Source: a virus
IMG/VR virus record: IMGVR_UViG_3300033153_002192
Location: 1 to 35,947 of that record
Reading direction: 5' to 3' (one strand)
DNA length: 35,947 bases
Shown piece by piece: positions 20,859-35,947 of this stretch (positions are counted from its first letter, which is position 1; every line of letters begins with the position of its first letter). The notes below the pieces were generated by a model, which saw nothing but the letters and a program-made list of their open reading frames with translations, made no database searches and was not told where the DNA came from. The translations under genes were made by a program, and so were the position numbers.

Positions 20859-20915
20859 ATGAACAGACATAACAAGCAGAAAAAAGTCACACAGATGATA
20901 GGAGGGGTGAGATGA
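20859..20915 (+). CDS. 18-residue leader-type frame
   Basis: The frame starting ATG 20859 (MNRHNKQKKVTQMIGGVR) ends over the start of the DUF1064 gene, whose strong GGAGGGG site lies in its last codons. It may couple translation of the nuclease to the helicase gene. It is too short to judge on its own. Confidence 0.2.
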   Translation: MNRHNKQKKVTQMIGGVR

Positions 20916-21354: not shown

Positions 21355-21600
21355 ATGAACACATACAAACTAAATTTTGCAAGTACTTGCCCTAATGACA
21401 ATGCAGTAGATAATTATAAGCTCACGATAAAAAGCAAGAAAATCATCATGGTTGAAGATATACTTGAGGTGGTGGCAGAAATAAAAAAAGAAGCAAAATA
21501 TCAGGAAGAGATACACGATACCCTAAAAAAGAATTTTCCAGAAGCAAAAATTAAAATGGTTGGGTGGCATTTAGGAATAGAGATAACAACCAAATGCTAA
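21355..21600 (+). CDS. Small protein coupled to the DpdA-like gene
   Basis: This 81-residue protein (YKLNFASTCPNDNAVDNYKL..., ending GWHLGIEITTKC) has a beta-alpha-alpha-beta look: N-terminal strands, two acidic/basic helices and a last strand. Its stop lies seven bases inside the next gene. It is not a QueD homologue, since the HGH-type zinc motifs are missing. The tight coupling suggests a partner of the transglycosylase-like enzyme, but this is inferred from position. Confidence 0.5.
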   Translation: MNTYKLNFASTCPNDNAVDNYKLTIKSKKIIMVEDILEVVAEIKKEAKYQEEIHDTLKKNFPEAKIKMVGWHLGIEITTKC

Positions 21601-22325
21601 AATATTATGGAACACCACTAACACCATTAAAAACTTTTAACGAAGTTATGCTTGGTAGAAGATGTTTAATCCCATACCCTAGACCACAAGACCTAAAAAG
21701 GGCATTAAAAATATGTGAGGGTATCATTATTGATAATGGGGCATTTACGATATGGAGACAAAACGGACTTCTGGAAAAAGGCTATTTTGAGTGGGATGAT
21801 TATTATGACTTTCTTGTAGACATTAAAAATGATATAGATTTTTTCTTTATACCCGATGTGATAGACGGAACAGAACTTGAAAATGATAGACTTATTCAGG
21901 AGTATCAATATATAAATTATCACGATAGAGACGAAATGAAAGGTGTTCCTATATGGCACATAAATGAAAGCATGGAAAGACTTGACAGGCTAATGGGTGA
22001 TTTTGATTTTATAGCAATAGGTTCTGCTGGTGAATTTGCACAGCTCGGTACTCCACAATGGGAGCAAAGAATGGATGAAGCTATGAGAGTGTTGTGTGAT
22101 AAAGAGGGATATCCAAAAGTAAAAATACATATGCTTAGGTGCTTAGACCCTAAAATATTTACACGGTTTCCATTTTATAGTGGTGACAGCACAGCACTAG
22201 CACAAAATCATAAGAGAGATGGATGGAGGCAGATAGTTGATCGTATAGAGAAGTACGACAGCCCAGAGAAATATGAATTTAGAAAATTTTATGAAACAAA
22301 ATGCCTGTTCGGAGAAGAAATCTAA
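21594..22325 (+). CDS. DpdA-like tRNA-guanine transglycosylase family enzyme (DNA base exchange candidate)
   Basis: This 243-residue protein reads as a compact TGT-family barrel of the DpdA type, enzymes that replace guanine in DNA by 7-deazaguanine derivatives. Visible motifs are MLKYYGTPLTP, IIIDNGAFTIWRQNG (Asp47), FFFIPDVIDG (Asp88), VPIWHINES (His122), FIAIGSAGEF, KIHMLRCL (His179) and YSGDSTALAQNH (Asp198). The Asp residues are candidates for nucleophile and base. ATG 21594 is chosen because the family begins with this YYGTP segment. No preQ0-synthesis genes (folE, queD, queE, queC) are seen, so the substrate would come from the host. A tRNA-directed or other role remains possible. Confidence 0.65.
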   Translation: MLKYYGTPLTPLKTFNEVMLGRRCLIPYPRPQDLKRALKICEGIIIDNGAFTIWRQNGLLEKGYFEWDDYYDFLVDIKNDIDFFFIPDVIDGTELENDRLIQEYQYINYHDRDEMKGVPIWHINESMERLDRLMGDFDFIAIGSAGEFAQLGTPQWEQRMDEAMRVLCDKEGYPKVKIHMLRCLDPKIFTRFPFYSGDSTALAQNHKRDGWRQIVDRIEKYDSPEKYEFRKFYETKCLFGEEI

Positions 22326-22389: not shown

Positions 22390-22602
22390 ATGAAAATAGA
22401 GACATTGGTAGAAATGATGGAGCAAGAAGAGTATCAGGTATTAACTTGTGGAGAATTTGCAAAACTTGTGCGAGACTCTGGGGTGATTGAGATGGAAAGT
22501 ATGGAGGGAAACAAGAAGTCTGTAGGAAATGAACTTGATTTTTTAACTGATCCAGAATGGCAGCCAACGAGTGTGACGCATCATACGAATAGGGATAAAT
22601 AA
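22390..22602 (+). CDS. Small acidic early protein
   Basis: This 70-residue protein begins MKIETLVEMMEQEEYQVLTC and has acidic helices and a polar tail ending THHTNRDK. It is the first gene after the promoter at 22334 and shares one base with the start of the Erf gene. The segment EYQVLTCGEFAKLVRDSG resembles a short helix-turn-helix but is too weak to call. The function is unknown. Confidence 0.5.
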   Translation: MKIETLVEMMEQEEYQVLTCGEFAKLVRDSGVIEMESMEGNKKSVGNELDFLTDPEWQPTSVTHHTNRDK

Positions 22603-24569: not shown

Positions 24570-25030
24570 TGAATACAAAACTATTTAGCAAGACGATGCT
24601 TATCACGGTACTTCACTATGCAGAACACGCAAATAACAACACATACAATAAAGACTTCATTGTAAGGCTTAGAGGTGCAATCAATGGATATTTGACATTC
24701 CATAAACTAAATACTAAAGAGTCACAGCAAGTCATTGAGATAGGCAAGAGAGAGTTTATAACAAAGCTTAAAGAGACAGAAATCGACTACTCGGTGCACT
24801 TAATGGCATTGATGGAACACTGGGTTAAACTGATACCAAAAGAGGACAGGCGAAACGCTTTGAATATCTCAGACAAAAAGATATTGCAAAACAAGAGCAA
24901 ACTGATACTTGATATGCTGCAGCTCAAAAGTAGAGACAAAGATGAATATAACAGAGTTAAGCTGATTGTATCAGATAGTGAACTTGTGGCTAAGAAGTAT
25001 GCTTATTATTTAAGTGAGGAGTTGAGATGA
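24569..25030 (+). CDS. Helical early protein upstream of the methyltransferase
   Basis: This 153-residue protein is mostly helical (KLFSKTMLITVLHYAEHANN, LMALMEHWVKLIPKEDRRN, LILDMLQLKSRDKDEYNRV). ATG 24569 is preferred to upstream in-frame starts because they lie inside the membrane-protein gene. It overlaps the methyltransferase start by four bases and has GAGGAG near its end serving that gene. I do not recognise it; a role linked to the methyltransferase is possible. Confidence 0.5.
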   Translation: MNTKLFSKTMLITVLHYAEHANNNTYNKDFIVRLRGAINGYLTFHKLNTKESQQVIEIGKREFITKLKETEIDYSVHLMALMEHWVKLIPKEDRRNALNISDKKILQNKSKLILDMLQLKSRDKDEYNRVKLIVSDSELVAKKYAYYLSEELR

Positions 25031-26334
25031 AGATAGCAACAGCCTTTTCAGGCGGTTTTGGTTCGATAGAATTTGCTATGAAATGCGAGAATATAAAACA
25101 TGAAGTTGTGTTTGCGTGCGAATGGTTAGACCCCCAGAGAAAATCATATTTACACAATCACGGAGAGCCTACAAGCAATTTCTATAAAGATATTAGAGAT
25201 ATGGACGGAACTAAATATAAAGGAGAGATAGACCTTTATCATTTAAGCCCACCATGTCAAAGCTATTCACTTGCAGGAAGACGAGGAGGTGCAGCAGACG
25301 AAAGAGGAGGGTTGATGTTTTCTGCTATAAAAAGCATTAATGAAGTCCAACCAAAGATGTTCACTATCGAAAATGTGAAAGGCTTACTAAGTTCAAATGG
25401 TGGTGAAGATTGGAAAAACATTCTAAGCGATGTGAGATCACTCAAAGGGTACACGGTTCAATATGGAGTAATGAACGCAAAAGACCAGGGAACACCACAG
25501 AATCGTGAACGTTTGTTTATCGTTGGGTTCAGAGGTGAGTGTATGCCTATGCCTTTCCCCTCTGTGACGAAACTTGATAAGTGTTTGGCAAATGTTCTTG
25601 AAGATGAAGTTGATGAGAAGTATTATTTAAGTAAGAAGGCAATCGCAAACTTCATAAAAAAAGATAGCGATCCAAACAACAATATGAGTATACAAGCTTT
25701 TCACAGTAGGGAGGATGATTATTCTGCAACAATAACTGCGAGATACAACAAGCGTGGAATAACAGACCCATACATACTTGAAAGCATAAATAAGATCGGA
25801 TTTATAAACCAAGATACCCAAGCATCACAAGTATTTAGTTCAGACGGAGTTTGCCCATCATTATGTGCAGGAACACATGGATATGCACAAGGATATATAG
25901 CAGAACTAAAGCAAATAGGGAACATAGACCAAAAAGGACATAACAGTTTATGGGGAAGAGTATATGATCCGGACGGCATAGCACCAACACAAAATGCAAA
26001 AGGTGGTGGTGGTGGTGGTGCAAAGACTGGATTAGTTTTAGTAGATCAACCACATAAAGATTTTCCTTACGGAATTATTGAAATAGATGGCGAATATTAT
26101 GCTGTCAGACGTTTAACACCAAGAGAGTGTAGCCGTGTTCAAGGTGACTTCAACGATATGTTTAAACAAGGTGATGCAAGTGATACAAAACTGTACGAGT
26201 TTGTAGGTAACGCAATGGACATATCAACCACACGAAATCTACTTAAAACCATGTTTGCTCATAAGGTAGAGTTTGGAGAGCCACAAGAACCAAGCTTTGT
26301 TAGGTCAGAGACGGCACAAAAGAGTTTGTTTTGA
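25027..26334 (+). CDS. DNA (cytosine-5) methyltransferase
   Basis: This 435-residue enzyme transfers a methyl group from AdoMet to cytosine C5. Motif I is TAFSGGFGSIEFAM, motif IV SPPCQSYS (catalytic Cys77), motif VI TIENVKGL (115-117 ENV), motif VIII QNRERLFIVG, and motif X YEFVGNAMD near the C-terminus. The target-recognition part contains related units such as FSSDGVCPSLCAGTHGYAQ and YDPDGIAPTQNAKGG, the latter ending in six Gly coded by a GGT run. No restriction enzyme is adjacent, so it is an orphan, likely for protection against host restriction. Confidence 0.9.
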   Translation: MKIATAFSGGFGSIEFAMKCENIKHEVVFACEWLDPQRKSYLHNHGEPTSNFYKDIRDMDGTKYKGEIDLYHLSPPCQSYSLAGRRGGAADERGGLMFSAIKSINEVQPKMFTIENVKGLLSSNGGEDWKNILSDVRSLKGYTVQYGVMNAKDQGTPQNRERLFIVGFRGECMPMPFPSVTKLDKCLANVLEDEVDEKYYLSKKAIANFIKKDSDPNNNMSIQAFHSREDDYSATITARYNKRGITDPYILESINKIGFINQDTQASQVFSSDGVCPSLCAGTHGYAQGYIAELKQIGNIDQKGHNSLWGRVYDPDGIAPTQNAKGGGGGGAKTGLVLVDQPHKDFPYGIIEIDGEYYAVRRLTPRECSRVQGDFNDMFKQGDASDTKLYEFVGNAMDISTTRNLLKTMFAHKVEFGEPQEPSFVRSETAQKSLF

Positions 26335-35672: not shown

Positions 35673-35947
35673 ATGTCTCAGAATTTATCTGGCGTAGCAC
35701 AAGAGCAGTTTGACAGCGAAGTAAAACACGCATATCAAGGGCTTAAAACACTTAGAGAGTGTGTAAAAGTAAGAAACAATGTAGTCGGTGACAAATACGA
35801 CTTTAGATTGATGGGTAAAGGTCAAGCAACACAAAGAACTGGTAGTTCAGCAGACGTTGTACCTATGGGTATCGACCACAGTTTGAAAGTGGCAACACTA
35901 TTAGACTACGAAGCACCAGAGTACACAGATATCTATGACTCTAAAAC
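35673..35947 (+). CDS. Major capsid protein, N-terminal part (continues at base 1)
   Basis: ATG 35673, preceded by AAGGAGAAGTT, opens the capsid frame; the first 91 codons lie here and the frame continues into the left end through the 114-base overlap. The N-terminus is MSQNLSGVAQEQFDSEVKHA and runs into a segment rich in basic residues (ECVKVRNNVVGDKYDFRLMG). The full protein is 266 residues, shorter than T7 gp10A (345). It follows the scaffold gene after a 520-base regulatory gap. Confidence 0.85.
   Translation, partial: MSQNLSGVAQEQFDSEVKHAYQGLKTLRECVKVRNNVVGDKYDFRLMGKGQATQRTGSSADVVPMGIDHSLKVATLLDYEAPEYTDIYDSK
35834..35947. repeat. Terminal direct repeat, right copy (circular overlap)
   Basis: This is identical to bases 1-114; see the left copy. 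The frame of the capsid gene is kept across the joint. Confidence 0.95.

Follow-up and report, generated by a model that had tools for sequence, protein, structure and literature searches.

A pair of overlapping genes found in a viral DNA stretch of 35,947 nucleotides, which is referred to as a whole as the window, may constitute a two-gene 7-deazaguanine kit in which DpdA would insert preQ0 taken from the host and a small partner protein would tailor this base, a reading to which a probability of about one half is given. The identities of both genes, the predicted fold, the invariant residues and the near-absolute linkage between partner and dpdA have been computed in this work. The DpdA part of the kit is already known and the new part is the 81-residue partner, whose fold, catalytic-looking residues and near-absolute link to dpdA have no earlier description in the accessible literature (most subscription papers and preprints lay outside this search).

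Genome context of the gene pair

The ends of the window share a 114-bp direct repeat (positions 1-114 and 35834-35947), and this terminal repeat makes it probable that the record is a complete genome, circular or circularly permuted, of 35,833 bp. The genome is podovirus-like and apparently complete, with head, tail, connector, terminase and lysis genes present, and its head-tail adaptor has its closest counterparts, with roughly 30% identity, in phages of Pelagibacter, Methylophilales and Vibrio. The gene pair is located in the early-gene block, amid replication and recombination genes, with a DUF1064 nuclease gene at 20912 and an Erf-like annealing protein gene at 22602.

Both genes are on the forward strand. 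The first one (21355-21600, ATG start) codes for P0002, an 81-residue member of phrog_37496 that is predicted to be a T-fold protein of the QueF-Like type, and the second one, dpdA (21594-22325, ATG at 21594), codes for P0001, a 243-residue base-exchange enzyme of the DpdA/TGT family (phrog_887). The two open reading frames and their seven-base overlap were confirmed as given in the preliminary description, the shared bases being exactly ATGCTAA at 21594-21600, and the dpdA frame stays open 5' of its ATG up to a GTG at 21564. The same genome contains a DNA methyltransferase gene (phrog_116, phrog_363; 25027-26334), a second possible DNA modification, and phage MED16 likewise combines dpdA with an adenine methyltransferase.

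Identity and predicted active site of DpdA

The 243-residue product is identified by its homologs as a DpdA. P0001 matched PHROG 887, annotated as 'queuine tRNA-ribosyltransferase', with an E-value of 3.8e-55, and this family is common to P0001 and the DpdA proteins of phages CAjan, Dp-1, MED16 and 7-11. In a direct comparison with CAjan DpdA, BLASTP returned an E-value of 5e-12 and the profile matched at 1.4e-17, and the identity of P0001 to MED16 gp38 and 7-11 gp32 amounts to 34% over 188-206 residues. Relatives of P0001 were detected by tblastn in 159 GenBank phage records; neither P0001 nor P0002, used as a single query on viral contigs, recovered a relative, and alignments were needed as queries. 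In GenBank OR850331.1, a 1.7-kb entry under the name of Staphylococcus phage SA 1298 Kay, the dpdA resembles the one found in BTP1-type phages of Salmonella, and this entry is likely mislabelled or contaminated.

The PHROG match and the alignments with the CAjan and Dp-1 proteins have borne out the DpdA/TGT family membership, and the three motifs that had been noticed in the sequence are present as DNGAF (residues 47-51), PDV (87-89) and GDST (197-200). Residues D47, N48, G49, P87, D88, D198 and S199, together with H179, are invariant in alignments of 12 and 40 sequences. In the CAjan alignment, DNGAF falls on LDSGAF and GDST on CDSS, with the DpdA-type His in register, and the Dp-1 protein aligns likewise. 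The predicted catalytic Asp47 (codon at 21732-21734) is placed on the Asp of LDSGAF, His179 (22128-22130) on the His of KLHAFG, and the predicted nucleophile Asp198 (22185-22187) on the Asp of SCDSS in CAjan and of SADST in Dp-1.

Structural prediction had been proposed as a check on this identity, and it has agreed with the assignment without being specific for it. The AF2 model of P0001 (pLDDT 84) is a TIM barrel that matches many TGT chains with Z scores of 12.5-13.2 in VIA, but comparable scores are reached by other TIM barrels: PdxJ leads the VIA comparison (Z 14.2), Cap10 (9NTN) reaches Z 13.6, on par with the TGTs (about 13), and Foldseek places tryptophan synthase alpha on top with TGTs just below. 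Because TGTs are not singled out by the fold search, it is the sequence homology that carries the assignment to DpdA, and the fold agrees with it.

Possible supply of the base and other genes adjoining dpdA

Six-frame HMM searches of the record at E<=1 gave no match to PF01227 (FolE), PF01242 (QueD/PTPS), PF04055 (radical SAM, QueE), PF06508 (QueC), PF14489 (QueF) or PF02592 (YhhQ/Vut_1), and control genomes gave positives in the precursor-gene searches. The earlier statement that the phage has no folE, queD, queE or queC is thus upheld for an apparently complete genome. The host, which had been proposed as the source of the precursor, is plausible in this role: QueC is encoded in 22 of 22 bacterial genomes carrying the gene pair, and therefore those hosts can make preQ0.

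At 32 of the 92 dpdA loci a gene of the Vut_1/YhhQ family (preQ0 transporter) lies next to dpdA, which suggests salvage; examples are found at 3220-3693 of L006, 1721-2251 of L007 and 3735-4211 of L058. In a previous survey, YhhQ was uncorrelated with any phage group (Hutinet 2019, PMC6884629). In 14 loci (L019, L025, L040, L044, L047, L049, L051, L053, L056, L061, L068, L077, L081 and L087) dpdA is adjoined by a T-fold gene of the PTPS/QueD family (PF01242), whose product is unlikely to be an ordinary QueD because the usual Cys before HGH is missing, and which is possibly a second partner type for phages that have DpdA only. A mutual exclusion between the phrog_37496 partner and this QueD-like partner (both present in 0 of 92 loci) was also considered, and it was not significant once near-duplicates were removed (Fisher p=0.31).

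Predicted fold and conserved residues of the small partner

The only sequence assignment of P0002 is phrog_37496 ('unknown function', E=1.6e-13), and no significant sequence match was found in Pfam, NCBIfam or PDB for the protein or for its family. A structure prediction built from 18 family members has given an AF2 model with pLDDT 94.2 and the order strand-strand-helix-helix-strand-strand (bbaabb), that is, a T-fold. When the PDB was searched with this model in Foldseek, the top 13 matches were all QueF-Like (E about 1e-4, probability 1.0), and VIA aligned 81 of 81 residues with QueF-Like (5JYX/5K0P) at Z 12.5 and rmsd 1.4 A, with lower scores for GTP cyclohydrolase I (Z 11.4) and B. subtilis QueF (Z 9.8).

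Across 91 phrog_37496 sequences, Asn2, Phe8, Glu34, Glu51, His72 and Gly74 do not vary and Cys12-Pro13 is conserved at 99%, with the Cys in 90 of the 91. In QueF, Cys55 (B. subtilis) is the catalytic residue that forms the thioimide, Glu97 anchors the base and Glu78 is a motif residue (PMC5372742). An hhalign comparison with phage QueFs, a weak match with a probability of 8%, places Cys12-Pro13 on their thioimide Cys-Pro, so that the predicted nitrile-attacking Cys12 (codon at 21388-21390) falls on Cys59 of Dp-1 QueF, the equivalent of B. subtilis Cys55. From this register and the aligned ranges (residues 1-81 on 10-99), we infer that Cys12 corresponds to Cys21 of QueF-Like. Glu51 (21505-21507), at the start of helix 2 and predicted to anchor the base, and Glu34 (21454-21456), at the start of helix 1 (residues 33-45), would occupy the fold positions of QueF Glu97 and Glu78, respectively; the invariant His72 is encoded at 21568-21570.

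The NADPH-binding motif of QueF, defined as E(S/L)K(S/A)hK (PMC5372742), is not present in P0002 (VEDILEV) or in the family (VEHIxTA), the motif Lys being missing. The site of the QueF general-acid Asp, seven residues past the Cys, is occupied by Ile in 92% and by Val in 5% of the family, and P0002 itself, alone in the family, has an Asp there (Asp19). PF14489 matched none of 20 family members, as was the case for the window record. Since the motif Lys is absent and the general-acid Asp is replaced in nearly all of the family, P0002 is predicted to be a T-fold protein of the QueF-Like type that is nevertheless neither QueF nor QueF-Like by the defining residues of these enzymes. Its predicted fold with the invariant Cys indicates that it probably performs chemistry on a 7-deazaguanine.

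Linkage of the partner and dpdA

Linkage was searched with the small protein alone, without dpdA, and 24 loci in bacterial genomes and 79 in viral contigs were obtained. In 102 of these 103 loci, raw counts in this analysis being inflated by near-copies in the samples, dpdA directly adjoins the partner on the same strand, with the partner upstream in 91 loci and downstream in 11, and the stop and start codons mostly overlap. The sole partner locus without dpdA (L122, 5914-6384) is carried by the Cupriavidus necator plasmid pSym; its invariant Cys has changed to His, and this orphan T-fold copy is probably a decaying relic. Conversely, a profile made from three P0002 relatives has detected the partner at 22 of the 92 dpdA loci sampled, about a quarter. 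The question raised earlier, whether the small gene always accompanies this type of DpdA, is thus answered affirmatively in the direction from partner to dpdA but not in that from dpdA to partner.

Four GenBank phage records contain the partner (Epa33 twice, RHph_X2_30 and Mae-JY30), all with dpdA next door. Partner copies also occur in Pseudomonas and Burkholderiales genomes, and the gene pairs in bacterial genomes are mostly located amid phage-like genes. Mapped on a tree of dpdA, the partner label requires 16 switches, of which well-supported branches force at least six, and therefore the pairing recurs and was not inherited once. In the enterobacterial temperate phages that were sampled, dpdA has no such partner, and the partner was found nowhere in the genomes of MED16 and 7-11; the MED16 gene immediately 5' of dpdA and the 7-11 neighbours were considered as the same partner and ruled out on comparison.

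The partner is missing in L013, which contains the nearest relative of the window dpdA. In this locus an endonuclease-like gene with an AP2-like C-terminus (2199-2924) is directly upstream of dpdA, in the place of the partner, and could be a replacement. A gap of about 200-230 bp separates partner and dpdA in L023, L024, L134, L166 and L167, and a small XRE-type HTH regulator gene (2218-2604) lies between both genes in L023, the one locus in which the gap was read.

Proposed function of the pair and alternative explanations

What follows on the substrate used, the product formed, the sequence of reactions and the role of DNA as target is our inference. In a TGT-type reaction expected from its homology, DpdA would swap guanine in the phage DNA for a host-made 7-deazaguanine, most likely preQ0. 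P0002 would be a minimal T-fold enzyme related to the archaeal QueF-Like, whose Cys12, by analogy with that enzyme, would attack the nitrile group of preQ0, either as the free base or after its insertion into the polynucleotide, to form a thioimide that would be resolved by ammonia (giving G+) or by water (giving ADG), and not by NADPH. In described systems, QueF-Like converts the preQ0 of tRNA to G+ by way of a thioimide on Cys21 that is resolved with free ammonia (PMC5485725), deletion of the CAjan dpdA gene removes dPreQ0 from the phage DNA (PMC6884629), and the DNA of MED16 and 7-11 contains dADG at 0.02-0.13% of G (PMC8306585, PMC6884629).

The two-gene kit is considered the best explanation, with support from the DpdA family membership and the active-site match to CAjan, the dADG in the DNA of MED16 and 7-11, the predicted QueF-Like-type fold of the partner, the invariant residues, the linkage and the recurrence of the pairing, the YhhQ-family neighbours and the QueC of the hosts. 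Several findings stand against it. The sequence homology between the partner and QueF is weak, as indicated by the 8% hhalign probability, and the chemistry of the partner may differ from that of QueF-Like, given that Ile has replaced the general-acid Asp in 92% of the family. The partner is missing beside most dpdA genes, and its absence from MED16 and 7-11 does not prevent these phages from making dADG. The very low modification of known DpdA-only phages also speaks against DNA as the target, and genome-wide protection can be taken only as a possibility.

The preliminary description had suggested that the small protein could be a specificity or delivery subunit of DpdA, and a non-catalytic role of this kind, or that of a preQ0 carrier in which the T-fold is a mere binding scaffold, would suit a small protein whose gene shares bases with dpdA and is hardly ever found apart from it. 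Purines and pterins are known ligands of T-folds, and the lack of conservation of the QueF-Like acid Asp in the partner family points in the same direction. A scaffold, however, would not need invariant Cys12, Glu34, Glu51 and His72, the single member without the Cys is also the single member without dpdA, and most dpdA genes do without any such subunit, so that this role is unlikely and a QueF-Like-type T-fold with an invariant Cys is preferred. A role of the partner as a QueF of the reductase type, producing the preQ1 that DpdA would insert, is very improbable, since the family is devoid of the NADPH-binding motif, even though it shares the fold superfamily of QueF and true QueFs occur in phages Dp-1 and HVTV-1, which have dPreQ1 in their DNA.

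Concerning the target, it is unlikely that the pair acts on a molecule other than DNA, either tRNA, on which QueF-Like itself works, or a protein N-terminus, as in the deazaguanylation of type IV CBASS. The equal match of the DpdA model to TGTs and Cap10 would fit this, as would the binding of a 7-amido-7-deazaguanine-modified protein by Cap10, a member of the TGT family (PMC11996544), and the tiny dADG levels in the DNA of known DpdA-only phages. These points are opposed by the sequence homology and active-site match to CAjan DpdA, the enzyme on which dPreQ0 in DNA depends, and by the dADG that accompanies the same-family DpdAs of MED16 and 7-11 in DNA. The shorter C-terminus of P0001 compared to CAjan DpdA (243 versus 306 residues) and the very low modification in MED16 and 7-11 might also mean that both genes are near-silent morons and that dpdA, as a relic, has lost most or all of its activity in the window phage, but this is very unlikely in view of active-site residues that are all kept in the aligned relatives, of the hundreds of relatives that exist, and of an operon with the partner that is repeated and conserved.

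As a more general and tentative proposal, phrog_37496 would represent a minimal T-fold enzyme that has so far gone unrecognised and differs from both QueF and QueF-Like; it would finish the DpdA-placed base derived from host preQ0 to G+, ADG or an undescribed 7-deazaguanine, and T-fold partners (phrog_37496 and the Cys-less QueD-like protein of 14 other dpdA loci) would be general tailoring modules of DpdA-only phages. These phages are the largest group suspected of having 7-deazaguanine DNA (PMC6884629, PMC8306585). The partner provides a concrete enzyme candidate, with Pseudomonas phage Epa33, Rhizobium phage RHph_X2_30 and Microcystis phage Mae-JY30 as isolates, and a family listed as 'unknown function' gains a functional hypothesis. 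If the proposal is true, phages with the two-gene kit may carry a decorated DNA base so far overlooked.

Comparison with known systems

With 76 phages, those having DpdA and no preQ0 genes outnumber every other group in the survey of Hutinet et al. 2019 (PMC6884629), so the DpdA-only state is already known and not new. The window phage, with dpdA and without FolE, QueD, QueE and QueC, belongs to group 3 ('singleton DpdA') of that study. It resembles the Pantoea phage MED16 (DpdA/TGT_1 cluster) and the Salmonella phage 7-11 in having a phrog_887 protein, no preQ0 synthesis genes and an assumed supply by the host, and it differs from both in the possession of the small partner. The DpdA of the Escherichia phage CAjan is homologous to P0001, with the active-site motifs aligned, but it is 63 residues longer and CAjan, unlike the window phage, makes its own preQ0 (PMC6884629). 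Cap10 of type IV CBASS has in common with P0001 the TGT-family TIM barrel (Z 13.6), whereas its ligand is a protein with a modified N-terminus and it acts together with the QueC-like Cap9 (PMC11996544), and the window genome has no QueC-family match.

Among T-fold proteins, the QueFs of Dp-1 and HVTV-1, phages whose DNA contains dPreQ1 (PMC6884629), operate in a phage 7-deazaguanine pathway, as is proposed for P0002, and have the Cys-Pro that aligns with that of P0002 at the low hhalign probability already given; these QueFs pass PF14489 and retain both E(S/L)KSLK and the Asp that follows the Cys, whereas the window record lacks PF14489. The closest structural counterpart is QueF-Like of Pyrobaculum calidifontis (5JYX/5K0P), with which P0002 is predicted to share the T-fold over its whole length, the Cys after strand 1 and independence from NADPH. 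Both proteins are 17-18% identical with no significant sequence match, the general-acid Asp is not conserved in the phage family, and P0002 is encoded beside dpdA in phages whereas QueF-Like is found in archaea with arcTGT.
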